In this document: positions 23,038-44,397 of the stretch, one piece after another
Numbering within the stretch: position 1 is the stretch's first letter
Layout: the number at the start of each line of letters is the position of its first letter
Assembly (NCBI RefSeq): GCF_025165815.1
Contig: NZ_JAFFZE010000003.1
Coordinates: forward strand, 62,001 to 126,000
Reading direction: 5' to 3'
Origin: Actinophytocola gossypii
GTDB lineage: Bacteria; Actinomycetota; Actinomycetes; Mycobacteriales; Pseudonocardiaceae
DNA: 64,000 nucleotides
Program-made: the position numbers and the translations under genes
Notes under the pieces: model-generated
What the model saw: the letters and a program-made list of their open reading frames with translations, nothing else
Told to the model about the DNA's origin: nothing
Database searches by the model: none

Positions 23038-23253
23038 GACAAACCCCTTACCGCCTGCTTGTAGTCGTTTACGGACCGCAGGGTCTTCCGACTCTGAAGC
23101 AACACCGTTGCTGACGTCCACTTGATCTCCGTTATGGACAAACATCGCCACAAGACGGCAGTCTGTTACCACCTGTTACCGCCCAACCGGGCCAAGTTCG
23201 GCGAGTCCGAACCGGTCATGTGCAACGCGGAGTGCACGCGTGGGTCGGTTGAC

Positions 23254-25020: not shown

Positions 25021-28000
25021 TCAGGCCAGCGTCTGCAACCCGCTTACCAGATCCGCCTGCACGAGTTCGTCGCGTTCGGCCGGCGTCAGCCAGCGTGCTC
25101 TCGACCCGGTCGCACCGCGCTCGACCCACAGGACGTCGTCCACAGCTTCGGCGACGGCGTGCAAGTGGCTGATCACCATGACGAGGCGGTCGCCGCCGGC
25201 CTGGGTGCGCAGTACTTCCAGGGCGGCCTGCAGGGCCGTGGTGTCGAGCGCCGCGAACCCTTCGTCCAGGAACAGGGAGCCGAGTCGAGGGCCGGTCAGG
25301 GAGTGCAGCTCGGCCAGCGCCAGTGCCAGTGCGAGGGACGCCAAGAACTTCTCGCCGCCGGAGAGCCGACTCGGGGTGTGGACGACGCCGGAGTTGCGGC
25401 TGACGATCTCGAAGCTGCCGGCGAAGCCGAACCGCTGATCGGTCAGCTGCCTGAGGAGGTCGCTGGCGATGGCCAGCAGCGTTTGGGTGTTCAGTTCGGT
25501 CAGGTGACCGAGGAACTTGGCGTCGACCAGTTCGCCGCGCAGCACGTCCAGTGCCGCCAGTCGTGCACCGCCGGCTTCGATGGCGAAATCCAGATCGGCG
25601 GCCGGCCGGACCTGCTCCAGCGCCGCTTTCTGTGCCGTGCGCTGGACTTTCGCCTCCTTTTCGGCTGTTGCGCGGCTAGCGACGAGCGGGTGCAGCGAGA
25701 TTGGATCCGTCAGGTCCGCGGCGGGGTCGAAACCCTCCACATCAGTCAGTGTCGCAGCCTGTTCACCGAGGTGGATGCGCGCTTCTTGTGCGAAAGACGC
25801 ATGGGTGGCGCTGGTCTCGATCAGTTCGGCGTGCAGCTCGGCAGCAACTGTCGACAGAGTCGTCGAGAAGGTCCGGATTTCGGCGAGTCCCGATTCTGCG
25901 GCGGGCCCTGGTGCACGGCTCCGGCTGGTGTCGGGCAGCTGAGCCACCGCGTGTGCAGCCGCGTTCGCCCACCCGTCCAAGCGACTGCGAAGCCTGGCCA
26001 GCGGCTCGTCCACGGCGGTGTGATGTTCCAGGTCGAGGGCGCGCCGCAGGGTGAGAACTGTGTTCTTCTCGTGGCGACTCGTCTCAAGCGCGGTATGCAG
26101 CTCCCTGATCTCGGCCAGCCGGGCGGCTATCGCCTCGGCCGCGTCGGCGGCGTCGGCGGGACTGATGTCGATCGCGTCGTCCGGCAGGATTGCCTGGATT
26201 CGAGGGGGCAGACCGCCGATGTCCGCAGCGGCGCGGTCCACGGCGCGCGTGTGCCTGGCTGATGCCGCCTTGGCTTCCTTGACAGCCTTGTTGTGAGCGG
26301 TCTTGCTTAGGTCCAGTGCCGTGCGGTCCGCCTTGATCGCGGTGGTCTCCTTGGCGTCGTCGATGCGCAGTTGTTCCGCGCGGGTGGCGGCGGCGTGTTC
26401 GCTGGCGGTGAGGGCGGTGACGGCGGGCTCGGTGAGTTGCGTCGGGTCGGCAACGGCGCCCGGGTGGGTGGCGAGGACGGTGGTGGCCGCGGTCAGTGCG
26501 GCCGTCGCGGTTTCGGTGGCGAAGGCCACTTCTGTTTCCGTGGCGAGGGACGCGAAGTCTGTGAGGAGTTCCAGCGCCTTTTGGGTGGCTCGTTGCACTT
26601 TCTGCTCGGCAGCCCGGTGGTCTTGCGCGCTCCTGGCAGTGGTCGATTCGGCTGTCGTGACCGCGGCGCGGGCCTCGACGAGTTCACGGGCGGCCTCGTC
26701 CAGGTTGGTCTTTGCTGCGTTAACGAGGGTGTTCGCCGTCTTGAGTTCGGCCGCGGTTGCTCCGGCGTCCGCTTCGAAGTCATCGGGCAGTTCTCGTCGG
26801 CACACTGGGCAGTCGTCGCCTGGGTGGGCCTCAGCGGCGACTGCCGCCGCCTGGTTGCGCATCCGGAGGACCTCATGTTTGTCCTCGGCCTCCGTGAGGT
26901 CGGTCTTGGCGGCGGAGGCCTTTTCTTCGCGGGGCGCGATGGCCTGCTGGGCGGTTTCGAGAGCGGTGCGGGCCAGGCTGTGGGCCTGGGCGGCGGTGGC
27001 GACCTGCTGCGCCGCCGAAGTCGCTTCGGTGAGATGGGCGCGAACGGAGAAGCCGAGCGTGTGAAGCCGCGTGTTCACGTCGGCCGCGGCAGCGGCGAGC
27101 TCGGTGAGCGGCTTGGCTTGCGCGGCCCGCTGGGCCAGATCCGTGTCGGCTTTCGCGATGTTGTTGGCTTCGGCTGTGAGTTCGTTGTGCTGAGCGGCGA
27201 GCCGGTCACGCTCGCCCCGTTGGTCTTCGGCTTGCGCCGCGAGCTTTTCCACGACCGTGGCGGCTTTGGTGAGTTCGCCCAGGCCTTCACCTTGCGTCTC
27301 GATGGCTTCGATTTTCGTGGTCAGCTCGCCGTCGCGCTTGTCGGCCGCGGTGGCACGGGAGTCCAAGGATTTCTGCCTAGTGGAGAGGTCGGCGACGACA
27401 GGCTCGAGGGCGTCCAGGATGGACGCGGCGTCCGTCACGGCCTTCTCGGCCAGGGATTCGGCGGCGCGACTGGCCTCGCCCGCTGCCGTGGTGGCGTCAG
27501 CTGCCTGCTTCTGGAGCGACGACATGGTGTCGATGGCGGAGCCCAACCGCTTGGCGGCGGCCTCGGCGGCGCTGGCCGCCACACCGGCTACCTCGGCGGC
27601 CTGTGCCGGGTTGTCGGGCATGGCCTGTCGTTTGATCTTCGCGTCCGCGAGTAGATCCTTGAGGCTATCCCGGCGGCGGCTGGCGCCGGTGCGTACGGAC
27701 TCGAGGGCGTCGGTTCCGAACAGCTCGCGGAGTCGTTCGGTCCGTTCCCGTGGCGCGGCGATGAGGAGCTGGTCGAACTTGCCCTGGGGCAGGAGCCCGA
27801 CACGAAGGAAGGTTTCGTAGCCCATTCCCAGCACGGTTTCGATCCGCGTGTTGACGGCGCGCGCGCCGTCTTCTTCGTGGCCGGTGTCGAGGTTGGTGAG
27901 GTGGTGCCGCCCTGCGTTGGGGTTCTTGGCGTGCAGGGTTCGCTGCACCTTCCAGCGATGTCCGTCGTGCAGGAAGGTGAACTCGACGCTCATGGCCTCG

Positions 28001-28203
28001 GCGCCGTCGGCGATCAGGTGCCGGACTTGGTGTGCGTCCCAGGAGCTCTTGCGGAACAGGGCGTAGGTGATGGCGTCGAGCAAGCTGCTTTTGCCTGCGC
28101 CGGTGTCGCCGAGCGCGGCGGCCAGGCTCTTGCCGGTGAAGTCGACCGTGACCGGGCGCGGGTAGCTGCGGAAGCCGTTCAGAGACAAGGTCATGGGCCT
28201 CAT
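25021..28203 (-). CDS. sbcC: SbcC-type SMC-like ATPase (Rad50 homologue)
   Basis: A 1060-residue Rad50/SbcC-like protein. Walker A 'LGDTGAGKSSLLDAITYALF' is near residue 31, long Ala/Glu/Lys-rich coiled coils occupy about 180-890, and the zinc-hook 'DDCPVCRRELPDD' sits near residue 465, at the coil apex where two molecules join. The C-terminal head has the signature 'LSGGEKFLASLALALALAEL' (near 950) and Walker B 'LGSLFLDEGFAALDT' (near 985). With SbcD it would process DNA hairpins and blocked ends. The ATG overlaps the sbcD stop (ATGA). The location inside a defence island, rather than at a core locus, suggests an accessory copy, which cannot be tested from this window. Confidence 0.9.
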   Translation of the reverse strand: MRPMTLSLNGFRSYPRPVTVDFTGKSLAAALGDTGAGKSSLLDAITYALFRKSSWDAHQVRHLIADGAEAMSVEFTFLHDGHRWKVQRTLHAKNPNAGRHHLTNLDTGHEEDGARAVNTRIETVLGMGYETFLRVGLLPQGKFDQLLIAAPRERTERLRELFGTDALESVRTGASRRRDSLKDLLADAKIKRQAMPDNPAQAAEVAGVAASAAEAAAKRLGSAIDTMSSLQKQAADATTAAGEASRAAESLAEKAVTDAASILDALEPVVADLSTRQKSLDSRATAADKRDGELTTKIEAIETQGEGLGELTKAATVVEKLAAQAEDQRGERDRLAAQHNELTAEANNIAKADTDLAQRAAQAKPLTELAAAAADVNTRLHTLGFSVRAHLTEATSAAQQVATAAQAHSLARTALETAQQAIAPREEKASAAKTDLTEAEDKHEVLRMRNQAAAVAAEAHPGDDCPVCRRELPDDFEADAGATAAELKTANTLVNAAKTNLDEAARELVEARAAVTTAESTTARSAQDHRAAEQKVQRATQKALELLTDFASLATETEVAFATETATAALTAATTVLATHPGAVADPTQLTEPAVTALTASEHAAATRAEQLRIDDAKETTAIKADRTALDLSKTAHNKAVKEAKAASARHTRAVDRAAADIGGLPPRIQAILPDDAIDISPADAADAAEAIAARLAEIRELHTALETSRHEKNTVLTLRRALDLEHHTAVDEPLARLRSRLDGWANAAAHAVAQLPDTSRSRAPGPAAESGLAEIRTFSTTLSTVAAELHAELIETSATHASFAQEARIHLGEQAATLTDVEGFDPAADLTDPISLHPLVASRATAEKEAKVQRTAQKAALEQVRPAADLDFAIEAGGARLAALDVLRGELVDAKFLGHLTELNTQTLLAIASDLLRQLTDQRFGFAGSFEIVSRNSGVVHTPSRLSGGEKFLASLALALALAELHSLTGPRLGSLFLDEGFAALDTTALQAALEVLRTQAGGDRLVMVISHLHAVAEAVDDVLWVERGATGSRARWLTPAERDELVQADLVSGLQTLA

Positions 28204-29517
28204 CGCACGTCCTCCGTCCTGGTGGCCTCGGCGCCGATTAGCAGTCTGGAGCGGTCGACACCGTCAAGGCTCTCGCCGGCGATGACGGCGGTCAGCAGCG
28301 TCTCCTCGCAGCAGGGGGCCGGTTCGGCGGGATCCGGTTCGGCCTGCAGGTCGGAGAAGGTGGCCATGACGTGGTCCAAGGCGCGCCCGGTGGTGCCGCG
28401 GCCGGGCAGGTAGTCGCGCAGCAAGTCGTCGATGCTGGGCAGCTCCGCGGTGATGGCCGTGCGGTCCAGCACCTGCCCGGCGGCGCCGGGGAAGCGTTCC
28501 TCGATGCCGACGATCGTCGCCTGCGGCAGCAGCTTGGCGAGTGTCTCGGCGAGGAAGTGGTTGGGGGCGTCGACGTCCACCACCGCTTTCACCCAGGCGT
28601 CTCCGACGCGCTCGGCGCGCTGCGCGATCTCCTCCAGGGTCCCGATCAGGTGAACCAGGCGGCGGCCGGAGTTCAGGGCAACGAGGTCGATCAGGGGCAC
28701 CCTGCCCGGGGCGATCTGAGCCAGGACGACGCTCTTGGTGTCGCTGGTCTCGCCGAAGTCCAACTGGAGCGGGCTGCCGGCGTAGCGCGCGGGAAAGCCG
28801 GCCCGGTCGACGCTCTGGGGTTTGTGGATGTGCCCAAGTGCGCCGTAGTCGACGCCCGGCAGGTCGTCGGCGGCGACGGCGTAGTCGGAGGTGATCGAGA
28901 CCGGCCGCTCGGAGTGGGAGGGGGTGGCCCCCTCGACGAAGAGGTGTGCGGCGAAGATCAGGAGGTCGGCCGGACCACGGTCGGCAGCCAGGCGGCGGTA
29001 GACATCGGCTTGGACGGAGCGAATGCGCTCGGCGTAGGCGGCGGTCGCCGTAGCGGGGTCGGCGAAGTCGTAGGCGAACCGGTTGGGATGCAGGTAGGGC
29101 AGCGCGCCGACACGTAGCGTCAGGTCGCTGGCCCGGGTACTCGGCGATCAGGAGCCCGCCTGGGCGGGCGTCGGTGGCGAACCGCACCCGGACCAGGTCG
29201 TCGGCGCGGTTGCCCATGTCGGTGAGAACGTAGTCCAGGAATCGCAGGACATTGGGCGTGTCGTGGTTGCCCGCGACGACGACCACCGGAGCGATGTCCC
29301 CGAGCCGGCGCAGAGCCTGAGCGGCACGGTGGACGTCGTCGAGGGTCGGACGCCCGTCGAAGAGGTCACCGCTGTGCACGATCAGGTGGGGGGCGAAGTC
29401 CGCGGCGATCTCGACGATCTCGTCCAGGACGGCGTCGAACTCGGCGTCGCGCCGGTAGCGGCGGCCGATCTGCCGCCCGAGGTGCCAGTCGGAGGTGTGG
29501 AGCACGCGTCCCGTCAC
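28200..29517 (-). pseudogene. sbcD: SbcD-type nuclease gene with a frameshift
   Basis: The gene encodes a calcineurin-like Mn-dependent nuclease, partner of SbcC. The first frame (GTG 29517, 'gggagg' upstream) carries 'VLHTSDWHLGRQIG', 'LIVHSGDLFDGRPT' and 'VVVAGNHDTPN'. It derails near 29140, where 'gagtacccgggccagcgac' appears to have one extra G. The other frame then continues perfectly with 'TLRVGALPYLHPNRFAYDFA', 'FAAHLFVEGATPSHSERPV', 'DYGALGHIHKPQSVDR' and the C-terminal cap domain to 28200. All five phosphoesterase motifs are present when both frames are joined. It is either a recent inactivating mutation or a sequencing error in a G/C run. About 438 codons in total, a normal SbcD length. 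Confidence 0.8.
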
Positions 29518-29642
29518 GGGATGCCTCCCTAGGGGGTAACGACGTCGAGCGAAGCCGCGACTTTGGATGTGACATCACGCACCGTACACGACAACTCGGG
29601 AGAACTCTGGAAGTCATCTGGAAGCCTGGTACGCTCTCGATC

Positions 29643-30497
29643 ATGAGCGACCCTTTAGATGCGCTGGAGGAGAACATCGCCACGCTGCGCCGCGCGATCC
29701 GCGACGCCGCCACCGCAGGTGACTCCATTCGGCTCGACGAGCTACGTGCTCGACTCCGCCGCGCCGAACGGGCTTGGAGCGCACTCGTCGACACCGACGA
29801 CCCGTCCACCGCTCCTGCGACCGCCGAGCGGATGGACCCGCCGTCGAGCGCGCCGGTCAGCCGGGGAGCGATGCTCCCGGCACGCGAGCACGCCCACCGG
29901 GCACTGATGCTGCTGCAGACCCCCGCAGCCCCCAAGCTCATTGTGAACGTCCACGAGGCGTTCTTCCCCGGCGAACTGTCCGCGTCGAAAATGTCGAGCC
30001 TGCGCCGGGACGAGGAACGCTCCTACCGAGCAGCGCCCGGCGCCCGGCCGTACTACCTGTGCCCCGCACTGACCTACGACCTACTGTCACCAGCACGGGC
30101 ACTCGTCACGATCAGCACCTGGCGGCTGGAACAGCGGATCATCGGCCCGCTGTCGCCACGCGTGGACTTCCTCACCGGCGCGATCCGCATCGCCGAGGCG
30201 ATCCGGGGGTCGATCGATTCGCCGGACACCGAAGCAAGCCCGACGGCGTGGCGCCTGCTCTGGCGCTTCGCCGTGAACATCCCCGGCGCCACGAGCACGA
30301 AGCCGGCCGCCGACGTCGGCACGACCGACCCGAACCAGGTGATCGACGCCGCCCGTGCCGAACTGGACGTGCACGCCGACACCGACCACGCCACCCGCGC
30401 CGAGTCCGCCCGGCGGGCACGTAAGCAACTCAGCGACGTTCAGCAACTGTTCGGCGCGTCGCTACGGGACGTCAGGCACCGGCAAGCCGAAGCTTGA
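29643..30497 (+). CDS. Protein of unknown function, first gene of a nuclease-helicase operon
   Basis: A 284-residue soluble protein that I do not recognise. Residues 1-50 form a predicted coiled coil ('LEENIATLRRAIRDAATAG', then 'LDELRARLRRAERAWSALV'), followed by a Pro/Ser linker. A mixed alpha/beta domain (about 80-200) contains 'PKLIVNVHEAFFPGEL', 'YYLCPALTYDLLSPARALV' and 'LVTISTWRLEQRIIGPLSPR'. The C-terminal 60 residues are again helical and charged. It opens a plus-strand run of four tightly packed genes and is divergent from sbcD, with 125 bp between the starts. The coiled coil suggests an assembly or adaptor role, which is inference. Confidence 0.75.
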   Translation: MSDPLDALEENIATLRRAIRDAATAGDSIRLDELRARLRRAERAWSALVDTDDPSTAPATAERMDPPSSAPVSRGAMLPAREHAHRALMLLQTPAAPKLIVNVHEAFFPGELSASKMSSLRRDEERSYRAAPGARPYYLCPALTYDLLSPARALVTISTWRLEQRIIGPLSPRVDFLTGAIRIAEAIRGSIDSPDTEASPTAWRLLWRFAVNIPGATSTKPAADVGTTDPNQVIDAARAELDVHADTDHATRAESARRARKQLSDVQQLFGASLRDVRHRQAEA

Positions 30498-30534
30498 CCC
30501 CGACCCCATCGCACCATCGCAAGGAACGAACACC

Positions 30535-31686
30535 GTGATCGCAACCCCCGACCAGCGCCTGGACGCGCTACGCGGGCCCGCACCCCGCATGCACCACAAC
30601 GCACGAACCCTGGCCGCGCTGGAAAACAACCCCCGCTGCATGCTGCGTGCCGTGCTGGACGCCTCCGGCTCCGACAAGGCCGCGATCGCCGCCCACACCG
30701 GCTACCAAGCTCCCTTCGGCCAATCCTCCTTCGCCCTCGCGCGCGGCAACGTCTTCGAGACGATGGTGAAGGCCAACGGCTGCGCGGAGTTGCTCCGGGT
30801 CCTGCGCGAGACCCTCCAGCTCACGCTGCCAGAGGTGGGCTACCAGGACCTCAACGACGTCGGCGGTGACGGCCGCGCCGAATCCCGCCACGCCCGCACC
30901 ACGCACCTGCTGACGGCCGCGGCCCGCGGCCACGGCAGCGACACGCTCTACGACCACCCGATGCTGCGGCTCGTCGTCGGCGGGCACCCGGTGTTCCTCG
31001 AGCCGGATCTCGTCGCCTTCCGCGTCGACGACCGCTTCCACGTCGTGGAAATCAAGAGTTTTCCGATCGTCGACGACCAGGCTGCGCCCGCGCAGGTGCG
31101 GGCGGCGACGACCCACGCATGTGCCTACATCATCGCGTTGCGGGCCATGCTCGCCGCAAGCGGCATTGGCCCCGAATCCGTGTCCGACACGATCGTGCTG
31201 ATCGCGCCGAAGGACTTCACCAACCGTCCGACCGGGGCGTTCGTCGACGCCCGCAAGCAGGTCGCCACCCTGACCCGGCAGCTGGAGCGGATCCAGCGCA
31301 TCGGCGACCTGGTCGAGCTCCTGCCCGAAGGGTTGACGTTCGACCTCGCCGCCGACGACACCGGCCGCCCGCAGCGTCCGGCACAGGAGCTGGCCGAGGC
31401 GCTGGACCAGGTACCCGCCACCTACTATCCGGAATGTCTCAACCACTGCGAGATGGCGTTCTATTGTCGCTCCCGAGCCCGCGCTGACGGTTCGCTGGAC
31501 GTGCTCGGATCCGCGGTCCGCGAGCAACTCGGTGGCGTCGACACCGTGACCATGGCCCTCGGCCTGGCTCGCGGGACGTTGACACCGAACGACGATCAGG
31601 TCGAGATGGCCGTCGCATTGCGGCACGCCGCCCGGTTGCGGGTCGAGCTGCACAACTCCCCCGGCGCGGCGGGAGCAGCCTCATGA
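30535..31686 (+). CDS. Cas4/Dna2-like PD-(D/E)XK nuclease with probable Fe-S cluster
   Basis: A 383-residue nuclease of the RecB/Cas4/Dna2 type. Motifs in order: 'LARGNVFE' (68-75), matching the N-terminal family motif; 'PVFLEPDLVAF' with Asp158; and 'VVEIKSF' with Glu172 and Lys174, giving a D-x13-E-x-K active site. Four cysteines fit the Fe-S cluster layout of Cas4, AddB and Dna2: one near the N-terminus (Cys35 in 'NNPRCMLRAVL') and three near the C-terminus (Cys301, Cys305, Cys311 in 'PECLNHCEMAFYC'). I expect 5'- or 3'-exonuclease or flap activity on single-stranded ends, by analogy. GTG 30535 is chosen for 'aaggaa' 8 bp upstream. It lies 37 bp after gene 1 and overlaps gene 3 by 4 bp. 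Confidence 0.8.
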   Translation: MIATPDQRLDALRGPAPRMHHNARTLAALENNPRCMLRAVLDASGSDKAAIAAHTGYQAPFGQSSFALARGNVFETMVKANGCAELLRVLRETLQLTLPEVGYQDLNDVGGDGRAESRHARTTHLLTAAARGHGSDTLYDHPMLRLVVGGHPVFLEPDLVAFRVDDRFHVVEIKSFPIVDDQAAPAQVRAATTHACAYIIALRAMLAASGIGPESVSDTIVLIAPKDFTNRPTGAFVDARKQVATLTRQLERIQRIGDLVELLPEGLTFDLAADDTGRPQRPAQELAEALDQVPATYYPECLNHCEMAFYCRSRARADGSLDVLGSAVREQLGGVDTVTMALGLARGTLTPNDDQVEMAVALRHAARLRVELHNSPGAAGAAS

Positions 31687-33215
31687 GCCGGGTATCCGCA
31701 CTGGCCCACCTAGAGGCGATGGAGGCGATGGAGGCGATGCCCCTGACCCGCTTCCGGCACCGACACCTGTCCGACCGGCCGCTGGTGGTGATTCCGCTGA
31801 CCATGGCGGGAGAGGCGGGAACCCCTCTGGCGGTGCTGGTCGGAGAAAGCAGGAGGTCGTCGACCCTGCTGGTCGTCGGCCAGCCGCGCAACCGGGACCA
31901 GCGGTTCGCGTTCGCCGCCGAATTCGGCCGGATCGTGATGGGCTACATCGACTCCTGCCGCCAGGACCGCCTGGAAATCCCCTCCCGCGGAGAGGAGCGG
32001 CGTTCCCGCTACACCTCTGCTCCGCAGATCCTGGTTCCCAACAACGGCGGGATCAAGGCGCTGAGCGACCTGGGCCGCATGTGCCGGTTCCGCCGCACGG
32101 ACGGCCCGTACCCGGTGCCCGCGGTCGTACCCGAACTCGGGAAGTGGCTGACGTTCCTGGTCGAAACGGCCGAGCAGGCGGGCACCTCGATGCTGCTGCC
32201 GATGACCGGCCTGCTCGGCGAGCACTGGGCCACCGGTCAGAGCGCACTCGAGGACCAGAACTTGGCCTCGCTCATGGCCTGGATCTCTCCCCCGGATGGG
32301 CTGACCGTCCAGGAGGCCATGGCCGACGCCGAGAACCCCGAATTGTGCCCGCCCGCGGGTCCCGCGACGTCCCCGCAGTTCGACAACACCTACCTCGCCC
32401 CCGCCATGCGGCGATTCGACACCGCGCGGGCGACCGGCAATGAGCAGGCGCTGGCCGAAGCCCAGGCCGACCTGCGGGGGTTGCTCAGCGAACAGCTCAA
32501 TCCGACCTGGCGTCTGATGTGGACCGCCCTTGCGCTGCTGCGCGGCGTCGACGAGGCGCCGCGGGCGGCCGCACGCTTCGAGCGCGACTGCGACTCCTTC
32601 ACCGACTACTCCGACTATCAGGACTCCGGCGACGCCCGGCCGCAGCCCAAACGAGACGGCGCGATCAGGGCTGCTCGGCGGCTGAGCAGGCTGGAGCGCG
32701 CGCTGGCCGACTTCGAAGCCGACATGGCCTTCGACGACCCATACGTCCGCGCCGACCAGCGCAGCCTCGGCGAGGCGTTCGCCGGAACGGTTGTGGCAGC
32801 CGAACCCGACCGGGTCGACATCACCGCGTCGAACCGGCGGGTGCCGAGGCCACGGGTCACCGTGCGCACCCTGGATCCCGTCCGACTGGTCGACGACACC
32901 AAGCTGATCAGCCCGACGATGCCACCCGGACACAAAGCCGAGATCGTCTCCATCGTGCGCGACGGCGACGCGAGCTTGATCATGGTGGAGGTCACCGGCG
33001 GTATGGGCCGCGCCCGGGTCCCGAGACCGGGAACCGTACCTGTTGTCGAGCAGCACATCGACTACCTGCCCGACCCCGGCTGGCGGCCGACCCCGGTGTT
33101 CCCGGAAGCAGACCAGATCCCGTGGACGCACGCCGGCGACCCGGAAGACTCCGAAACCATGGATCCCGTTGCAGCCGGCCAGGCCGCGACCGAGGAGTGG
33201 GGCGATGACAACTAA
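31683..33215 (+). CDS. Unknown protein of the nuclease-helicase operon, possible nucleic-acid-binding C-terminus
   Basis: A 510-residue protein I do not recognise. The N-terminal third has beta-rich segments ('RPLVVIPLTMAGEAGTPLAV', 'STLLVVGQPRNRDQRFAF'). The middle is helical, with 'NPTWRLMWTALALLRGVDEA' near residue 275 and the acidic 'DSFTDYSDYQDSGD'. The C-terminal 150 residues have the strand-rich look of the OB-like domain that precedes Upf1/Dna2-type helicase cores ('GEAFAGTVVAAEPDRVDI', 'HKAEIVSIVRDGDASLIMVE'). It overlaps the nuclease gene by 4 bp and the helicase gene by 11 bp, so the three proteins are probably made together. I infer that it is the DNA-binding or scaffold subunit of a split Dna2-like machine. 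Confidence 0.72.
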   Translation: MSRVSALAHLEAMEAMEAMPLTRFRHRHLSDRPLVVIPLTMAGEAGTPLAVLVGESRRSSTLLVVGQPRNRDQRFAFAAEFGRIVMGYIDSCRQDRLEIPSRGEERRSRYTSAPQILVPNNGGIKALSDLGRMCRFRRTDGPYPVPAVVPELGKWLTFLVETAEQAGTSMLLPMTGLLGEHWATGQSALEDQNLASLMAWISPPDGLTVQEAMADAENPELCPPAGPATSPQFDNTYLAPAMRRFDTARATGNEQALAEAQADLRGLLSEQLNPTWRLMWTALALLRGVDEAPRAAARFERDCDSFTDYSDYQDSGDARPQPKRDGAIRAARRLSRLERALADFEADMAFDDPYVRADQRSLGEAFAGTVVAAEPDRVDITASNRRVPRPRVTVRTLDPVRLVDDTKLISPTMPPGHKAEIVSIVRDGDASLIMVEVTGGMGRARVPRPGTVPVVEQHIDYLPDPGWRPTPVFPEADQIPWTHAGDPEDSETMDPVAAGQAATEEWGDDN

Positions 33216-34551
33216 CGACCACACCGGCTTCGACCCGGCTGCCGCCGCCGATGTGGCGACTACCGCGATCCTGGCCGACCTCGCAGATGCCGCCAACCGG
33301 GCGGTGGTCGTGGACTCGCCACCCGGCGCTGGCAAGAGCACGCTAGTGGTCCGAGCCGCGGGTGACCTCGTCGAAGGCGATGAGCGACCGATCATCGTCG
33401 CCCAGACCAACAACCAGGTCGACGACCTGGTTGTCCGCTTGGCCGAGGCGCACCCGGACATCACGATCGGCCGGCTCAGCGCGTCCAGCTACACCACGCC
33501 GCCGACCGTCGACGCCCTCGCGAACACCATCGTCGCCACCCGCGTGGCCGACCTGGCCGGCTGCAGGATCGTCGTCGGCACCTCCGCCAAATGGGCCACC
33601 GTCCGCGATGAGACCTTCGGCTGGGCGATCCTGGACGAGTCGTACCAGATGCGCTCGGACATGCTGCTCCAGATCGTCGAGAGGTTCGACCGCGGCCTGT
33701 TCGTCGGGGACCCCGGTCAGCTGGACCCCTTCACCGTCGTGGGCACCGAACGGTGGATCGGGCTGCCCCACGACCCGACTCAGAACGGCGTCACAGTGAT
33801 GCTGGAGCACAACCCCGGCACCCCCGTGCACCGCCTGCCGGTGTCCTGGCGCCTTCCGACCACCGCCGCCCCGACCGTCGCCCGGGCCTTTTACCCGTTC
33901 GCTGGCTTCAACGCGGGAATCGGAGAAGGGGTTCGCGCGCTGGAGTTCCGCTCCGCGGGATTTGGCAGCAGCGTCTTGGACGAGACCCTGGCAATGGCGT
34001 TCGCCACCGGCTGGGCGCTGCACGAGCTGCCTCGCCGCCACGTCCCGCGCACCGACAGCGAGACCATCCAGGCGACCGCGGACCTCGCAGTCCGGCTGCT
34101 GGACCGCGGCGCGATCGCCACCTGCGAACGCCACCGCGACGGCCGGGTTCTGGACGCCGGGGACATCGCGATCGGCGTAGCCCACCGCGACCAGGCCGAC
34201 CTGGTCCGAGCCGCGCTCGCCCGCACAGGCCGCCCGTACGCGGGGCAGGTCGCGGTCGACACGGCCAACCGCCTGCAGGGCCGCGAATTCGAGGTCGTGA
34301 TCGTCGTGCACCCGCTGTCCGGTCGCCGGGACGCGACCGCGTTCCACCTGGAGGCCGGACGGTTGTGCGTACTCACCTCTCGGCACCGGCAGGCGTGCAT
34401 CGTCGTCGCCCGCGAAGGGATCACCGACCTCCTGGACAGCCACCCGTCGACCGACGCCGTGCACCTGTCGGTGCCGGCGAAGTTCCCGGACGGCTGGGAG
34501 GCCAACCAGGTCGTGCTGGCCAAGCTCGCCCGACATCGCGTTGCCGCATGA
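33205..34551 (+). CDS. SF1 helicase (Upf1/Dna2-like)
   Basis: A 448-residue ATPase with a full SF1 motif set of the Upf1/Dna2 group: Walker A 'VDSPPGAGKSTLVVRAA' (about 35-51), motif II 'WAILDESYQMRSD' (about 140), motif III 'LFVGDPGQLDPF' (about 165), motif V 'VDTANRLQGREFEVVIVV' (about 352) and motif VI 'LCVLTSRHRQACIVV' (about 388). It is shorter than fused Dna2 proteins and lacks nuclease and Fe-S regions, which here are on the gene at 30535. ATG 33205 is used; the frame upstream lies inside the previous gene. It is the last gene of the four-gene run and is followed by jetA after 72 bp, so read-through into Wadjet is possible. Confidence 0.85.
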   Translation: MTTNDHTGFDPAAAADVATTAILADLADAANRAVVVDSPPGAGKSTLVVRAAGDLVEGDERPIIVAQTNNQVDDLVVRLAEAHPDITIGRLSASSYTTPPTVDALANTIVATRVADLAGCRIVVGTSAKWATVRDETFGWAILDESYQMRSDMLLQIVERFDRGLFVGDPGQLDPFTVVGTERWIGLPHDPTQNGVTVMLEHNPGTPVHRLPVSWRLPTTAAPTVARAFYPFAGFNAGIGEGVRALEFRSAGFGSSVLDETLAMAFATGWALHELPRRHVPRTDSETIQATADLAVRLLDRGAIATCERHRDGRVLDAGDIAIGVAHRDQADLVRAALARTGRPYAGQVAVDTANRLQGREFEVVIVVHPLSGRRDATAFHLEAGRLCVLTSRHRQACIVVAREGITDLLDSHPSTDAVHLSVPAKFPDGWEANQVVLAKLARHRVAA

Positions 34552-34623: not shown

Positions 34624-36144
34624 ATGAGCACACGAGGTGTAGAGGGTGCATACCAGGGTGCGCTTCGCGCCTTCCAGAACCCAATGCTTGATCTGCTCCA
34701 CCGGACGTATGCGCCGTTCGTGGTGACCGTGCTGGCGATGTTGTTCACCCCTGAGCGGCCAACCGTGGCGGTGGCGGATGCACATGCGGAGATCGACGAC
34801 ACCCTCGACCAGCTGCGGGCTGCGGGATACGGCGACGAGGACAACCAGCCGCTGCCTGCCGGGAACGCGCGCGACCTGTGCCGGCAGTGGGTCTACGCAG
34901 GCTGGCTGGTGCGACAGGTGTCCGACAACGACATCGAGGTGTACCGGTTGTCCGCACACGGAGTCGGCGCGCTTGAGGTCGCCGGCCGGGTCGGCGGAGC
35001 CCGGACCAGGGTGTCAGAGTCCCGGGTCAGGACGTTGTTGGACGCAATCGAGCGGCTCGCGCAGGACGCCGATCCGGATGTGATGGCCCGTATCGCGCGG
35101 CTCGAGGTGGAGATCCGGCAGCGTCAGCAGGAGCTCGCCCGTCTCGAACAGGGCGGCACCGTGGATGCCGTTGATGACGAGCAGTTGCTCGAGGCGGCCG
35201 AGAACGTGCTGCATCTGGCGCGGGAACTGCCCGCCGATTTTGCCCGCGTGGCTGAGTCGATCAAAGTGATGCAGCGGGATGTCGTCGCGGAGTTGCGGCA
35301 GGACGTGCGGCCGACCGGTGAGGTGCTGCGCGAGTACCTGGCCCGCGGCCAGCAGATCATGGACACGACACCGGAAGGCCGCGCGTTCGCCGGGGCGTTG
35401 CGCCTGATCGGTGATCCGGCGCAGATCGACGACCTGTGGAGCCAGCTGCACACGGTGTTGCGGCACCGATTCACCGACTTGCTGCCGGAGCTCCAGCGAA
35501 GGGAACTCACCGAGATCGCCCGCCGGATCGAGCAGGGCGTCAACGAGGTGCTGACGGCACAACGCCAGGCGTCCCATGTGATCACCACTCAGGTCCGCAA
35601 CCATGACCCGTTGCGAGACCGCCAGGTGGACGAGCTGTTGCGGGACGTGATGTCCGGATTCCACAAGTGGGTACCCAACTCGCGGCGCAGCGCGACTGTG
35701 GACCCGCTGCGCCGCCTTCCGGTGGCCGATGTCGGGCACCTGCGGCAAACGATGAGCGATGTGCGGCCACCTCAACCACCCGCGCCTTTGCGGGAATGGG
35801 ACGAAGCGGAGGACGTGCCAGACGCCGACACCCGCGCGTGGGGTGGTCCTCGGTACGCCGAACTGCGTGCGCACCTGGCGGCGTTCGCAGACGACGCGGA
35901 GCGTGTCGATGTCGCGGCCGCGTTCCGCGCAGCGCCTGAGGAGCTCCAACGACCAGTTGATCTGCTCGGCCTGCTGGAGATCGCGCATGACTCCGGAATG
36001 ACCGATACGGCTGAGGTCACGGTGGTCGAAGCGGTCCGCCCCGACCAGACCCGCCGACGGTTCGCGTTCGGCGGCGTGTCGGTGACGAACCTTGCGACGA
36101 GCCCGGTGCCGGCCAGCGCTGACGGGAGTGACGACGATGAGTGA
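34624..36144 (+). CDS. jetA: Wadjet JetA (DUF3375-type, kleisin-like subunit)
   Basis: A 506-residue protein, first gene of a complete type I Wadjet locus. Features fit DUF3375: winged-helix N-terminus '[18 protein letters not shown]' (about 20-37), '[20 protein letters not shown]' near 85, '[19 protein letters not shown]' near 120, then a coiled coil from about 140-200 ('[18 protein letters not shown]'). JetA is the MukF-like kleisin that bridges the JetC ATPase heads and organises the DNA-extruding motor that recognises small circular DNA. It overlaps jetB by 8 bp. No strong ribosome-binding site precedes the ATG at 34624, and the region before it is only 72 bp, so expression may depend on the upstream operon or a leaderless transcript. 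Confidence 0.92.
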
Positions 36145-36808
36145 ACCGGACAGCGACGAAGCCGACTGGTCGGATGACACGGCGGCGGGGTTCATCGCGC
36201 CGGTCTCGATGGAGGATGACCCGGCGGAACTGTTCGCCGGTGACGCGGGCACGCTCGACGCGGATGTGCGGCGGGTGCTGGTCCAACTGCTGCGGCGCAA
36301 GTTCTTGCTGGCCGAGAAGTACCCGGCACAGTGGCGCACGTTGCAGGAGAACCAGCAGATCATCGAGTCACGGTTGCATGACCTGTTCGTCCGGCTCGTG
36401 GTCGATCACGACCGCGGTATCGCCTACAAGCAGCAAGTGCGCTCCGCGGAGCTGGACGTGCCGATCCTGCTCAAGGACGACCCCTACAACCGTGCCGAGA
36501 CCTTGGTGCTGGTGCACCTGCGAACCGTCTTCCAACGGGAAAGTGGTACGGGCGAGACATCCGCTCGGGTGGACATCGAAGAGCTGGAACAGACCGTGCT
36601 GACCTATTTCGATCCGGAGGACCACAACCTGGCCCGCGGCCAGCGCGACATCCGTAAGGCAATAGAGCGGCTGGCCACCGAAGGACTGATCACCGAGGAG
36701 TCCGCGGGGCGGTACCGGATCACACCGCTGGTCGAGGTTGTGCTGAGCACCGAGAAGCTCACCGAGCTGAACCAGTGGCTGCGCGAACGGAACGAGGTTA
36801 CGTCGTGA
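36137..36808 (+). CDS. jetB: Wadjet JetB (DUF4194-type, MukE-like subunit)
   Basis: A 223-residue protein matching DUF4194: an acidic N-terminal 45 residues, then '[20 protein letters not shown]' (about 50-69), '[14 protein letters not shown]' near 90, '[19 protein letters not shown]' near 112-130 and the C-terminal winged-helix signal '[20 protein letters not shown]'. JetB is the MukE/KITE-like subunit that binds the kleisin JetA. ATG 36137 is inside the end of jetA, and its own stop overlaps the jetC GTG start. The region fits the canonical order jetA-jetB-jetC-jetD. Codon bias matches the neighbouring genes. Confidence 0.9.
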
Positions 36809-39800
36809 GCATGATCGACACGCTGTTCGGGCTGATCCCAGTGGCCTCCCGTGGCCAGCAGTGGGTCGCGCGGAACCTGCAGTTGGTCAACTGGGGCGGC
36901 TACGATGGGTACCACCAGGTGAGGCTCGCTTCCGGCGCGACCCTGCTCAGCGGGGGTTCCGGGTCGGGCAAGTCGACACTGATGGACTCCTACATCGCGT
37001 TGCTCATGCCGCACACGACACCGTTCAACGGGGCGTCCAACGGCGGTGTCGTCGGCCGGCCCAGAGGCAAGGACCAGCGCAACATCCTCTCCTACGCGCG
37101 CGGGAAACTCGACGAGTCTCGGACCGATGGCGAGACGAGATCGCAGGTGCTGCGTGGGGACGGCCGCGACACCTGGTCGGCGATCGCGATGACCTGGGTC
37201 GACCACACCGGTGCCGAGTTCACCGCGCTCCGGGCCTGGTACGTGCCATCATCCGCCCGCACCCTCGACGACATCGGCCCGGTCCGCGCCACCTGTGACA
37301 GCTCGTACGACCTACGCACACTGGAAGCCGTGGCGAAACCGGACATCAAGCTCGCCCGTGCAGCGGTCACCGCAACCGGCCTCACCTGCTTCGAGACCGA
37401 CAAGGAATTCATCGCGCGACTGCACACCACGCTTGGCATCGGGGCCGCAGGCGACGGGCACAAGGCGGTCGGGCTGCTCGGCCGAATCCAGGCCGGCCAG
37501 CAGATCACCACGGTTGACGCGCTGTACAAGACGATGGTCCTCGAAGAACCGTCCACATTGACCACGGCGGACGCGGTGGTGCAGCAGTTCGACGAATTGT
37601 CCGGCACGCGGAAGCGGATGATCACCGCCCGGCAGCAGGTGAAGGCGTTGACGCCAATCCGCGAACATCGGGACACCATCGACGACGCGAAGGCACAGCT
37701 GCGGGTCATCGACGACGTCGGGGCGTTCACCGACGCCTCGTCCCCCGCCGCGTTGTGGCGTCACGAACGCCGGCTTGACCTGTTACGCGCGGCCGAGGAA
37801 GACCTGGCACGGCGGCACCGCCAAGCCGAGCAGAACGTGCTGGAGACAGACGCGTTGATCAAGGCGGCGGAGTCCCAGCGCGACGGGGTGATCGACACCC
37901 TGCGCGCCTCCGGCGGCGACCGGTTGGACACCGCACTTCGAGAGATCCGCGGCGTGGAGCAGCAGCTGGCCAACGTCGAACGCTCGCGGGAGCGACTGGA
38001 CCGGGCGCTGGACACCATCGGTGCCACCGTGTCGACCGAACCGGATTTCGCCGCGCTGGTCGAGACAGCACACCGAGTACTTGCCGACACCGACGCCAGG
38101 AAAACTGCGCAAACGCAGTTCGCTGAGGCAATGGCGGAACAACGGGACGCCGAACGAGTCCTGACGAGGTTGCGTGCCGAGCGCAAGGCCGCCAAGACAC
38201 GCCGGAGCAACTTCCCGGACGACCTGCACAATGCACGCGCCGCGCTGGCCGAGGCCGCCAAGCTCACTCCGGACGACCTGCCGTTCGTCGGTGAGCTGAT
38301 CGAAGTACGAACGGAGTTCGAGCCGTGGCGGGAAGCGTTCAACCTGGCGCTTGGCGGGTTCGCCTCCCGGATGCTGATCGACATCGGCCAGTTGAGCTCA
38401 TTCCGCGAGGCGATCAACGCGGTGTCGCTCCCCTGGCGCGTCCAGTTTGAGGGGGTGCGCACTGGTCTGCGCGACGAGGTCGGACTGGAGGATAAGACGC
38501 TCCCCGGCCGGCTCGACTACCGGCCATCGCCGTTCACTGCCTGGCTCAAGAGCGAACTCGCCCGCCGGTTCGACTACGTCTGTGTCGAGACACCTAGGCT
38601 GCTTGGGCAATACCCCAAGGCACTCACGATCACCGGCCAGACGTCGGACCGCAGTCGGGGCGCGCACGGCGGTCACGGCCGGCGCAACCTGCTCGGCTTC
38701 ACCAACAGCAGGCTGCTCGCCGACCTCGAAACCCGGATCGGCCATGCCCAACAACGCCTTGACATCGCCGAAGAGCGGGTGACGGAGGCGGAGACGACCC
38801 TCAACTCGTTCGAGGCCAGACGCGCTGCCTACCAGGCCCTGACCGAGCTGTCCTGGGGCCAGGTGGACGTCGCGTCGGTCAAGGCAGAACGGGACCGCTG
38901 GTCGCGCGTCATCGACGAGGTGCGGGCGGGCAACCCGGAGATCGATCGGCTTCAGCAGGATGTGGAGAAGCTCAAGAAGCGGGTCACCAAGCTGACCGAG
39001 CGCATCGGCCAGCAGAAGGGCGAGGCAAAGACGCTCGGCGAGTCTTGGGAATCGACGGTCGACGAGGTGGATCACGCCCAGCAGGCACTCGACATCGCCG
39101 TGGAGACCGGCATAGAGGTCAGCCGAGAACACCGGGCATACCTGGCGACGCTGTTCGACGGAGCCCCAGACGACACCGCCCCGACCGCAGCGCTCGCAGA
39201 GTTCGACGCCGCCATGAAACGTGCCACCGAGCGGCTCCGCGCCGACAAGCAGTCCGCTACGGAATCGATCAGCCGATCGGAGAAGGCACTACACGACACA
39301 TTCTCGACGTTCGTCGAACGCTGGCCCAACCCGAACCTCGGCACCGACCCGCACGCCTCCTACCGCGACTTCGACCACCTGCTCACCGACCTGGAGACCA
39401 ACGGCCTGCACGAGCTAGAGACCGAGTGGCGCGACAGCCTGCTCAAACTCTCCGGCAACGACCTCACCAGCCTCGACAGTGAACTCGCCGCCGCTGTCCG
39501 AGAGATCCGCGACCGGATCGACCCCGTCAACCGCATCCTCGCCGACCTGCCATTCGCCGACGACGACCACCGGCTGCGCATCGACCCGCAGGAAAGCCAC
39601 TCCGCGGTGCGCGCCCGGTTCCGCAAGGAACTACGCGACGTACGTGCCTTCATCGACAAGGCGACGGCGGACGCCGACCGCGAACGCGCCTACCACCGGA
39701 TGGCCAAGGTGATCGACCGCATCCGCCGCACCGCGCCCGACTTCGCCGACCTGATCGACGTGCGCAACCACGTCCGAATCAGCGCCGAGAAACGCAATCT

Positions 39801-40155
39801 CGACGGCGAGCACGTCGCCGTGTACGACCACATCGGCGAGAAGTCCGGCGGCGAGTCCCAAGAACTGGTCGCGTTCATCGTCGGTGCCGCGTTGCGCTAC
39901 CAACTGGGCGACGCCGGCGCCGAACGCCCCCGCTACGCCCCCGTCTTCCTCGACGAGGCACTCATCAAGGCGGACGCGCACTTCACCGGCCGGGCCATCG
40001 GCGCCTGGCGCGGACTCGGCTTCCAACTCATCATCGGCGCACCCAACGACAAGCACAGCGCGATCGAGCCGCACGTGGACGCGGAGTACCTGATCCTCAA
40101 GACCACCCAGGGCCGGTCCTGGGCAAAACCCATCATCGGTGTATCCGACACATGA
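36805..40155 (+). CDS. jetC: Wadjet JetC (MukB/SMC-like ATPase)
   Basis: A 1116-residue SMC-type ATPase, the motor of Wadjet. Walker A '[20 protein letters not shown]' is near residue 48-67. Two long coiled coils (about 290-480 and 650-800) flank a central hinge-like region ('[20 protein letters not shown]'). The C-terminal head has the signature '[20 protein letters not shown]' (about 1014) and Walker B '[15 protein letters not shown]' (about 1045). This is the MukB-like arrangement in which the complex extrudes DNA loops. The GTG at 36805 overlaps the jetB stop (GTGA). An ATG at 36811 is an alternative. The protein is full-length for the family. Confidence 0.92.
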
Positions 40156-40189
40156 CCGCCGACGCATCCGTCGCAGCGGAGGCAATATC

Positions 40190-41428
40190 ATGAACACCCG
40201 CCTCATCACCCCGGACGATGCCGTCACGGCCATCAGCCGCAAGATCAACCAGAAGTGGGCGGAAGCTGTGTGCGCGGAACTGGGCGTCGGCGAGCGAGTC
40301 ACGTTCTCCGTTCCGCTCCGCCCCGGCGTGTCGACCGGCAAGGCCGTCGAGCAGATCGGGCACGCCGCCTGGCACGAGTGGCACATGCGCTGGCGCGAGT
40401 TCGCCGGCCAGCTTCCCGTCGGCGTGGAGATCGTCTGTAAGACGGTCGCTGTCCGGGGTGTCACTGGCGAGTTTCCCGCCACGCTCATCGCAGACCTGGA
40501 TGCCGCCGTCGTCCTGGAGGCCGAAGCCGGATCCGGATCTCGTACCGATGCCGAACCGCCGTCCGTGGACGTCGACCGCGCCCGCACGCTCGCGTCGTCG
40601 CTGCGGTCGGCTGGCGCGGTCCTCATCCCGGCCACCCTTCGGGCTACATACCGGCTTCAAACCACCGACGCGGAGGTGTTGGTCAATGCCGTGACCTGGC
40701 TACGCCAGCACCCCGACGCCAGCGCCTGGACCGCGCGTCAACTCCCAGTCCCCGGCATGCACACCAAATGGCTGGACACCCACGGCACGCTGCTGCGGGA
40801 CGTCACCGGACGCGACGTCCGAGACGAGGTCCGGCCCCGGCTGACCGTCGTGCACCTGACCTACGTCGACCCTGACCACGCCGCAACGGGCCGCCGCAGA
40901 CACGACGCCTGGACCACCGGCGACGTGCACGACATCGCCTACCAGCCGCGAATCGTCCTCATCGTCGAGAACCGCGACTCCCGACTCTGGTTCCCGCCAG
41001 TCAAGGACACGATCGTGGTCGAGGGCGGCGGCAAGGCCGCAGCCACCCTCCTTGCGAATGTGCCCTGGATCCGCGCAGCAAAACACATCGTCTACTGGGG
41101 AGACATCGACGCGGACGGCTACACAATCCTCGACCAGTTCCGCGCCGCGCTGGCCAAGCCGGCGCCGGACGGTGCACCGGCACAGCCCGTCACCTCCATC
41201 CTCATGGACGCCACCGACTTACACCGCTACGCCCAGCACGGCGTAAACCACGACAAGGCCGGCCGTCCCATCAAGCCGTCATCGGCGACCCTGCCGCACC
41301 TCACCGAAGCCGAGGCCACCGCGTACGACATCATCGCAACCGTCGGCCCCACGCCATTTCGACGGATCGAACAGGAAGCCATCCCCCTCATCCACGCCGC
41401 AACCCGACTGCTAGACGGCACGACGTGA
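40190..41428 (+). CDS. jetD: Wadjet JetD (DUF3322/DUF2220, TOPRIM nuclease)
   Basis: A 412-residue nuclease subunit that cuts DNA once the Wadjet motor has reeled in a small circle. The N-terminal DUF3322-like arm has 'GKAVEQIGHAAWHEWHMRWR' (about 43-62) and 'RQLPVPGMHTKWLDTHGTLL' (about 183-202). The C-terminal topoisomerase VI-A-like TOPRIM core shows 'IVLIVENRDSRLWFPP' (about 260) with the metal-binding Glu and 'HIVYWGDIDADGYTIL' (about 300) with the Asp-x-Asp pair. ATG 40190 has 'ggagg' 7 bp upstream. It follows jetC after 34 bp. All catalytic residues are present, so the system looks functional. Confidence 0.92.
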   Translation: MNTRLITPDDAVTAISRKINQKWAEAVCAELGVGERVTFSVPLRPGVSTGKAVEQIGHAAWHEWHMRWREFAGQLPVGVEIVCKTVAVRGVTGEFPATLIADLDAAVVLEAEAGSGSRTDAEPPSVDVDRARTLASSLRSAGAVLIPATLRATYRLQTTDAEVLVNAVTWLRQHPDASAWTARQLPVPGMHTKWLDTHGTLLRDVTGRDVRDEVRPRLTVVHLTYVDPDHAATGRRRHDAWTTGDVHDIAYQPRIVLIVENRDSRLWFPPVKDTIVVEGGGKAAATLLANVPWIRAAKHIVYWGDIDADGYTILDQFRAALAKPAPDGAPAQPVTSILMDATDLHRYAQHGVNHDKAGRPIKPSSATLPHLTEAEATAYDIIATVGPTPFRRIEQEAIPLIHAATRLLDGTT

Positions 41429-41514: not shown

Positions 41515-42219
41515 TCAAGTTTGTTGCCGCCACGGCCCGCTAACCACGCACTCTCGGACCCCGCTTGAGCAACGATATAGATTGGCTTCAATGGACACTA
41601 CTCGCAAGGTGGCGTTGCGACGGTGATAGTCACGCCATGCCCTTGCTTGGTCATCGCGTCCGAGTTGCACCCCGATCGATCCGTCCGCACGTGCGATGAC
41701 CATCTCGTCCCAACCGCCCTGCTCACCAACGAACTGCTCCGCGAGTTCGAGGAACGTGGGCGAACTGTGATCAACATGCGCCTCTTCCCTCGCAACGACC
41801 CGACCCGTGACCGCACACAACACCGGAGCTGGTGAACAATAGGTTTCCTCGGCGAATTCGTACACCTGATTCGAGACTTCGTGTCGCATCGCACCCATCA
41901 CCAGCCGTCGGTGCGATGGAGGCCGCAGACACTTCATAAACGAGAAATCAGTTTCAGAACGATCGACGCGGACAAGATAGAACGATCGTTGCCGGACGAA
42001 TTTTGGATTGACGCGAACCTCGAAATGAGCTACACCACAACCCAACTTTTCGTCCCGCTCCGGATGAAGTTCTAGGAGATCAAGCAGGAACTGCTCGTCT
42101 GCGATTCCAGTAACCCGTTGCCCGGGATCATAACGATAAAGAACGTCGCGGCAGGCCTGCTCCGCGTCCTTCTTCAGCGCAAAGGAACGGTCCCCCACCA
42201 GCACGGGATTGCGCGGCAT
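41515..42219 (-). CDS. DUF3223 (DCL-like) domain protein
   Basis: A 234-residue protein of unknown function. 'LKKDAEQACRDVLYRYDPGQ' (about 15-34) followed by 'EQFLLDLLELHPERDEKLG' and, in the centre, 'CAVTGRVVAREEAHVDHSSP' (about 134-153) match DUF3223, a small family with a conserved Cys/His motif that resembles an HNH or zinc-binding site and is often found near restriction or DNA-repair genes. The C-terminal 60 residues ('DDQARAWRDYHRRNATLRVV') look helical. GC content is lower than in its neighbours, which fits recent transfer. It converges on jetD and is divergent from the HNH-type gene, with 146 bp between the two starts. Confidence 0.65.
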   Translation of the reverse strand: MPRNPVLVGDRSFALKKDAEQACRDVLYRYDPGQRVTGIADEQFLLDLLELHPERDEKLGCGVAHFEVRVNPKFVRQRSFYLVRVDRSETDFSFMKCLRPPSHRRLVMGAMRHEVSNQVYEFAEETYCSPAPVLCAVTGRVVAREEAHVDHSSPTFLELAEQFVGEQGGWDEMVIARADGSIGVQLGRDDQARAWRDYHRRNATLRVVSIEANLYRCSSGVRECVVSGPWRQQT

Positions 42220-42365
42220 CGATGCTTCCCTCCGTAGCGTCCGAGGTCAGGTTTACTCGGCTTGACGCGGCCGTACAAGGGCAGCGCCAGTCGCTGGCCC
42301 CGCGTGCCTGTCTGTGCCACCGGAATCCGGTTGGCCAAGTCCTCCACGGTTCGGGAGACGCGTAG

Positions 42366-44261: not shown

Positions 44262-44363
44262 CCCACGCGACGCAACCAACACCTCCGACCAACGACTCAA
44301 CCCAGGACTGCCCGAACAGCGCCTCCACCGGACCCACGCTGGTATCGTGGACGCATGAGCAAC

Positions 44364-44380: not shown

Positions 44381-44397
44381 ATGTCCCTCGAACAGGT

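Follow-up and report, generated by a model that had tools for sequence, protein, structure and literature searches.

The operon of four genes that lies beside a Wadjet system in the actinomycete Actinophytocola gossypii raises the question of whether it is a defence system in its own right or one part of a larger machine. The operon (g1 to g4) was found in a stretch of 64,000 nucleotides (contig NZ_JAFFZE010000003.1, positions 62,001 to 126,000), hereafter the window, and a preliminary description made from the letters of the window presented it as a candidate new defence system encoding a split Dna2-like nuclease and helicase with two unrecognised partners. Comparative analysis supports, with moderate confidence, a different reading, in which g1 to g4 and the adjacent genes for SbcC and SbcD would form a mobile module of six genes that processes DNA ends and acts as a functional partner to Wadjet. 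The association consists of gene content, conserved active-site motifs, linkage to SbcCD within one clade, a mobile setting and repeated pairing with Wadjet types I, II and III.

Related loci were collected by a contig scan that returned 119 relatives. Only the best 80 of these entered the set, which is thereby biased towards close ones; three more from a plasmid collection brought the total to 83 loci. In a tree of g2-g3-g4 with 142 tips, the window falls in a clade (clade A, support 1.0) of 38 loci, the window included, after removal of L048 (a second contig from the L020 strain) and L175 (a duplicate of the L016 genome). Wadjet was typed with tblastn references, followed by PADLOC (for representatives and weak cases) and home-made Jet profiles, which corrected the tblastn typing where it missed a divergent type II system (L130) or was weak (L013 and L025). 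A Wadjet adjoins the module in 36 of the 38 clade-A loci, that is, in the window and in 35 of the 37 others, with type I in 17, type II in 11 and type III in 8. The nearest Jet gene is at most ~650 bases away in all 36 (the Jet genes of L015 and L027 being named by PADLOC), and the Wadjet lies downstream of g4, in the same or the opposite direction, or beyond SbcC. The defence-island setting claimed for the operon has stood, since the window copy sits in a mobile-looking defence island, but not its status as a simply independent system, the clade-A neighbour being a Wadjet of any type.

The type of the adjoining Wadjet changes at least 12 times on the g2-g3-g4 tree by Fitch parsimony. When the type labels were shuffled, the mean was 16 changes, and 1.4% of 2000 shuffles were as low as 12. 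Because the 12 changes lie below the shuffled mean, the type is partly inherited, but it is often exchanged. Modules 0.036-0.05 apart on the tree carry different Wadjet types, as in the near-identical modules of L031 (type I) and L038 (type II; distance 0.036), or of L018 (type II) and L021 (type I; 0.045). The window itself has type I, whereas its sister locus L013 has type III (PADLOC JetA3 6e-127, JetC3 5e-141). Other SbcCD-linked loci with Wadjet are L123 (only JetC3 in view), L130 and L172. A constant core of SbcCD, nuclease and helicase combined with exchanged Wadjet types is strong comparative evidence for joint function.

This core extends beyond the four genes originally delimited, a boundary that proved too narrow. 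SbcD lies divergently upstream of g1 to g4 in 37 of the 38 clade-A loci and SbcC is found in 36 of 38, L041 lacking SbcC, SbcD and g1 together. On the tree, distances between the SbcD proteins correlate with those between the g2-g4 sets (Spearman 0.94, 34 loci); since SbcD both adjoins the operon and follows it in this way, the unit is taken as six genes, and the idea of SbcCD as mere background was rejected. Within 13 type I loci, SbcD tracks the g2-g4 distances at 0.99 and JetA at 0.90. In the SbcD tree, where the only outgroups were the two other SbcDs of the window genome, the module SbcDs group together with support 0.88. These two belong to further SbcC-SbcD pairs on contigs C7 and C45 of the genome (7.4 megabases, 53 contigs, 99% complete), with ~30-39% identity over matched stretches. 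The assignment to SbcCD follows from the SbcC family match in the window, the adjacency of the two genes and the SbcD motifs of relatives, which are complete in L013, L011, L123, L172 and L049.

The operon itself is compact, with g1 to g4 co-directional and coupled at spacings of +37 (g1/g2), -4 (g2/g3) and -11 bases (g3/g4), which agrees with the overlapping or closely spaced genes first reported. Neighbourhood genes were called with a codon-position gene caller. The genes g2, g3 and g4 occur in 83 of 83 loci and g1 in 82 of 83, in constant order and more often than by chance, and they recur together across many actinobacterial genera; nuclease and helicase are distinct genes in all 83, as had been proposed. 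L041 is the locus without g1, the g1 of L056 is in pieces, and one gene is split or truncated in each of L048, L056 and L077. In a Micromonospora locus (L063), a 2.4-kb insert between g3 and g4 encodes a 765-residue HEC-05-like protein (L063:12734-15028). No family above cut-off was found for g1, g2 or g3 in PADLOC-DB 2.0, Pfam, NCBIfam or PHROGs, which leaves g1 and g3 as unrecognised as they had first appeared; up to E 0.01, PADLOC-DB 2.0 profiles gave 0 families for each of the three and only weak helicase matches for g4. No PADLOC-DB 2.0 model covers the operon, in keeping with the initial view that it is not a named defence system.

The protein g2 is likely a RecB/Cas4/Dna2-like nuclease, judging from its motifs. 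Among 142 aligned homologues, the cysteines C35, C301, C305 and C311 are kept in all 141 that are readable at each place, and the active-site residues D158, E172 and K174 in 140, 139 and 140, respectively. All seven residues had been correctly picked out in the preliminary description. Further places of the RecB motif are H141 (139/142), Q194 (140/142) and Y198 (142/142), the window protein having H at residue 194 (31114-31116) as opposed to the Q of the QxxxY motif in 140 of the 142. We take this residue set to be the RecB/Cas4/Dna2 motifs with a putative 1+3 iron-sulphur (Fe-S) site, a reading made from motifs: comparison of a g2 profile with PDB sequences gave nothing convincing, and neither Dna2 nor Cas4 was matched. 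Designed repeat proteins did match g2 in the PDB-profile comparison (E 1.6e-10 and 3.7e-7), but the score was summed over repeats with no single significant stretch and was set aside as uninformative. Changes at D158, E172 or K174 are limited to copies without SbcCD (L065, L066, L135, L140 and L141). In two of these, L140 and L141 from Streptomyces, E172 is replaced by L and K174 by R, so that g2 is apparently nuclease-dead; g3 and g4 are retained.

The helicase g4 matches SMUBP-2 (6.6e-11) and DNA2 (2.2e-9) in the PDB-profile comparison. All 142 homologues retain K44, N69, D144, E145, D169, Q172 and R216, and 140-141 retain Q358, G359, R393 and R395. Together with its AAA_11 and AAA_12 matches, these motifs uphold the assignment of g4 to the Upf1/Dna2-type helicases of superfamily 1 (SF1). 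Dna2 and Upf1 carry an extra domain within the helicase. Because g4 is short (448 residues) and K44 lies only 100 residues from D144, g3 may, as a conjecture, supply the domain that Dna2 and Upf1 carry inside. The g3 profile matched no PDB sequence up to E 1, and the OB-like (oligonucleotide/oligosaccharide-binding) C-terminus suggested for it was not confirmed by any Pfam, NCBIfam or PDB-profile match. In a phylum sample, g3 was found in the class Actinomycetes only (11 of 296 genomes); phyla other than Actinomycetota were covered by the contig scan alone, whose 80 listed titles are all actinobacterial. For g1, the PDB-profile comparison returned rabenosyn coiled coils (E 0.03), a match judged uninformative.

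Among known systems, the module resembles in composition the eukaryotic Mre11-Rad50-Nbs1 or -Xrs2 complex (MRN/MRX) acting with Dna2. The likeness lies in the Mre11-Rad50 pair, the motifs of an Fe-S PD-(D/E)XK nuclease and the SF1 helicase, g4 having the Upf1-like SF1B core expected of Dna2. In g2 the motifs of a putative RecB-like nuclease with a four-cysteine site are conserved, but no profile match accompanies them. The difference lies in the placing of nuclease and helicase on separate chains, in the two unrecognised proteins and in the missing profile match of g2. Archaeal Mre11-Rad50 works with the helicase HerA, an FtsK-like hexameric ATPase, and with NurA, a nuclease of another kind. 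The module likewise joins Mre11-Rad50 to a helicase and a nuclease, but these are an SF1 helicase and a RecB-like nuclease, and PADLOC, Pfam and NCBIfam showed no ATPase family of the HerA type among g1 to g4 and SbcC. Wadjet is defined as a four-gene system, and most of its Streptomyces copies lack the module; PADLOC finds no Jet profile match in g1 to g4, which thus lie outside the Jet families. Membership of Mokosh was rejected, since matches of 23-24 bits cover the helicase motifs of g4 and not full-length MkoA/MkoB or MkoC, and that of PLuB because g4 scores 50 bits against a cut-off of 999; in both cases the likeness is to the shared helicase core only, with g1, g2 and g3 unmatched. AddAB/AdnAB, in which a UvrD-like helicase is fused to a nuclease, was also rejected, g2 having no Pfam match and g4 carrying AAA_11/AAA_12 and no nuclease domain.

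From the association described above, we infer complex formation, an enzymatic activity and its substrate, an order of action and an anti-plasmid effect. A Wadjet of any type would recognise small circular DNA and cut it. SbcCD (Mre11-Rad50) would load on the new ends and clip those that are blocked or form hairpins, and would then pass them on to the split Dna2-like machine. There the helicase g4 might thread single strands into g2, the putative Fe-S nuclease; g3 would be a bridging subunit and g1 a candidate recruiter or regulator. The invader would be destroyed instead of being re-ligated or repaired, and the same activity might be turned on linear replicons, to which Wadjet is blind. In its fullest form, put forward only tentatively, this is a two-stage immune machine in which Wadjet I, II or III would act as exchangeable sensors of circles for one shared DNA-destruction module, a bacterial analogue of MRN-Dna2 resection put to immune use, with the new protein families g1 and g3 coupling both.

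Published work, cited here from the available parts of each text, is consistent with such a scheme. According to a review, Wadjet cleaves circular DNA of smaller size and leaves linear DNA uncut, and Rad50 complexes act as sensors of DNA ends (PMC10586767). In E. coli, hairpin telomeres come under attack from Mre11-Rad50 if a phage protein does not shield them (PMC12624138), and Wadjet and Lamassu are enriched towards Streptomyces chromosome ends (PMC10482375). It is because Mre11-Rad50, a nuclease and a Dna2-type helicase adjoin Wadjet, taken with these three sources, that the module is best read as an end-consuming stage or as a linear-DNA arm.

The link between SbcCD and Wadjet was also followed in control sets. 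In an evenly drawn class sample, a g2 homologue was found in 59 of 345 genomes, and 62 neighbourhoods were fetched besides the window's own, some shortened by contig ends. Five of these loci, the window included, are linked to SbcCD, and all five have Wadjet genes (type I in the window, II in G045, G250 and G456, and III in G392, where only JetC3 is seen, at the contig end). The other 58 showed no Wadjet match within up to ~9 kb on either side. Among loci without SbcCD, Jet A/B/D profile matches occur in 2 of 101, namely L041, the clade-A locus that lost SbcCD, and L081, with a JetD2-like gene 5.4 kb past g4. Thirteen SbcCD-linked loci lack a Jet A/B/D match; five of them (L187-L191) come from three genomes, L194 from the L026 genome, and L123 has JetC3 only. 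Of 140 tree tips, 39 have both SbcCD and Wadjet, 6 have only SbcCD, 2 have only Wadjet and 93 have neither. No p-value is attached to these figures, because the loci share descent and a few genomes are represented twice.

In the wider family, a g2 homologue is present in 142 of 150 Streptomyces genomes and, for a Nonomuraea-like genus (its members match Nonomuraea loci on the tree) in which only g2 was searched, in 52 of 54. A Streptomyces clade without SbcCD comprises 30 tips with g2-g3-g4, g1 not being found there; the fetched neighbourhoods of the widespread copies contain g3 and, in most cases, g4, whereas SbcCD is absent from them and Wadjet nearly so. Because g2 homologues are near-universal in two genera, the family, taken together, is not confined to defence islands. 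The preliminary description had named a conserved core repair locus as the finding that would overturn it, and this description fits the wider family but not clade A: for the window operon an ordinary core repair locus was rejected, g2 occurring in 0 of 5 same-genus genomes listed and, in the family sample, in 4 of the 149 genomes other than that of the window (5 of 150 when it is counted). In G244 and G345 (L128 and L129), g2 and g3 are found with no g4 match nearby, and g2-g3 may be a minimal pair. The lineage perhaps began as a chromosomal DNA-processing complex and was later joined with SbcCD and mobilised, a direction that is itself inferred. Searches of plasmid records gave three matches (two Streptomyces plasmids and an 11.85-megabase Nonomuraea record), and viral relatives were absent from phage records, with none confirmed in viral contigs.

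Several observations weigh against a partnership with Wadjet. Within clade A, L047 has type I restriction-modification genes beyond SbcC in place of Wadjet; L026 has no Wadjet in view, with nothing seen downstream and a record that starts at SbcC; and the L025 Wadjet, counted as type I, is in fragments. SbcCD is incomplete in two loci (part of SbcD only in L023; SbcC and SbcD in pieces in L010), and in the window the SbcD frame is broken between ~29092 and 29144, either through an assembly error or through a recent loss. Where SbcCD lies downstream in the same direction (L049, L050, L053, L061 and L067), Wadjet accompanies 1 of 5 (L067). Among the fetched extra copies from the 150 Streptomyces genomes, with weaker second matches left out, ten genomes have an SbcCD-linked copy. 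Six of these have Wadjet (G250, G513, G524, G575, G583 and G622); in the other four no Wadjet is visible (G580, where the copy lies at a chromosome end, and G540, G595 and G614, with copies near chromosome ends or arms and no Wadjet within ~9 kb). This set overlaps the contig-scan loci (G580 is the L026 genome), and the two are not additive. Moreover, most Wadjets lack the module: among the matches listed, JetA1 above cut-off adjoins it in 1 of 5 Streptomyces genomes, and JetA2 in 3 of 52. That g2-g4 have a use of their own is clear from relatives that lack SbcCD and Wadjet, and a shared preference for mobile islands or chromosome arms could bring module and Wadjet together with no joint mechanism.

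An alternative is a stand-alone defence against linear DNA (phage genomes, linear plasmids or conjugating DNA), made up of SbcCD and a split Dna2-like machine, that would travel with Wadjet by complementary target range and share no mechanism with it. Linked loci without Wadjet lie, where tested, near other defence or restriction genes, namely type III restriction (L049), Shango (L050), the type I restriction-modification genes of L047 and a type IV-like restriction enzyme (L188); several copies are located on a linear plasmid or close to the ends of chromosomes; and linear DNA is ignored by Wadjet according to the available text of PMC10586767. It is nevertheless rather unlikely, since the clade-A neighbour is an adjoining Wadjet in 36 of 38 loci and not a mixture of systems. 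The SbcCD-linked Streptomyces copies L187-L191 (G540, G595 and G614) form a divergent lineage; in G540 and G614, either end of the chromosome contig has one copy ~23 kb inward, and in G540 a TnsB-like gene lies past SbcC.

It is less probable still that the module protects the host by repairing or resecting chromosome breaks from Wadjet misfiring, allowing the host to survive its Wadjet. The composition equals that of a break-resection pathway (eukaryotic MRN with Dna2), and the near-universal g2 relatives of two genera resemble genome-maintenance genes, but most same-genus Wadjets do without the module and the window genome already has two other SbcCD pairs. An aid to the replication or transfer of a mobile element or linear replicon (end maintenance or recombination) in place of immunity would suit the copies on two Streptomyces plasmids, near chromosome ends (L194 and L187-L190) and in the tRNA-integrated island of the window; it is improbable to a marked degree, as the window copy lies among Gabija-like, Wadjet and other defence-type genes and the Wadjet pairing is left unexplained. 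A hitch-hiking paralogue of a core actinobacterial repair locus, carried along in islands with no special link to Wadjet, a view suggested by the near-universal g2 homologues of Streptomyces and the Nonomuraea-like genus, is already disfavoured to the point of being hardly credible by the presence of Wadjet near 2 of 101 homologues without SbcCD, against 36 of 38 in clade A with its many partner switches.

A partnership between the module and Wadjet would bear on a widespread group of systems, on the fate of DNA after the Wadjet cut and on the handling of linear invaders. If true, the two-stage machine would explain how the cut leads to plasmid loss in actinomycetes and would extend protection to linear replicons. 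Furthermore, two new protein families (g1 and g3) gain a testable role, and a widespread actinobacterial locus of unassigned function is tied to DNA-end processing. A full-text literature search, with most subscription papers, preprints and supplements outside its scope, returned no description of such a Wadjet-linked module in the texts as far as available. The available text of an actinobacterial defence survey, which reports Wadjet in 42% of actinobacterial genomes versus 7% of others, does not contain the words SbcC, helicase or nuclease (PMC10482375).

Table 1. Features of the module and its island, in window positions.
Feature	Coordinates	Strand	Remarks
tRNA-Leu	18322-18406		Last 25 bases recur imperfectly at 44395-44419 (22/25 identical)
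Serine recombinase genes	18458-19882 and 44082-45473		Included in the outline of the putative mobile element
Gabija-like pair	20364-23172		GajA (OLD ATPase with TOPRIM, 3e-186) and short GajB helicase (1e-122)
SbcC (Rad50-like ATPase)	25021-28203	-	TIGR00618 3e-53; Rad50 families
SbcD (Mre11-like nuclease)	28200-29517	-	Two pieces in two frames match intact L013 SbcD at 84-87%
Divergent intergenic region sbcD/g1	29518-29642	.	125 bases; same divergent arrangement in clade A
g1	29643-30497	+	284 residues; unrecognised family, predicted helical N-terminus, conserved SLRRDEERS core (alignment)
g2	30535-31686	+	GTG start, 383 residues; putative RecB/Cas4/Dna2-like PD-(D/E)XK nuclease, by motif
g3	31683-33215	+	510 residues, no family match; accompanies g2 even without g1 or g4
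g4	33205-34551	+	448 residues; Dna2/Upf1-type SF1 helicase core; AAA_11/AAA_12 above cut-off
JetA1 (DUF3375), Wadjet type I	34624-36144	+	72 bases past g4; PDLC00464 5e-215, PF11855 4e-118
JetB1 (DUF4194)	36110-36808	+	PDLC00473 1e-110; start codon uncertain
JetC1 (SMC-like)	36775-40155	+	PDLC00517 E=0
JetD1 (nuclease)	40139-41428	+	PDLC00530 2e-73; JetD_C 2e-30

The surroundings of the module are summarised in Table 1. The neighbouring operon (34624-41428) is a complete Wadjet of type I, with JetA (DUF3375), JetB (DUF4194), JetC (MukB-like) and JetD (DUF3322/JetD_C). SbcCD and Wadjet are confirmed as the neighbours of g1 to g4, as first described. The whole set lies in a putative mobile element of ~26 kb (18322-44419) with lower guanine-plus-cytosine content than its flanks.

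Other genes of the island were also matched. The protein at 23745-24962 matches the PADLOC candidates PDC-S64 and HEC-08 as well as DUF3644, and its C-terminus has several CxxC pairs. The segment at 41518-43133 encodes a HamC2-like DUF3223 protein and a divergent protein that matches the N-terminal part of CBASS-type endonuclease effectors. Finally, in a related locus (L052:6661-13094), the downstream genes resemble, by eye, a type I CRISPR-Cas set.

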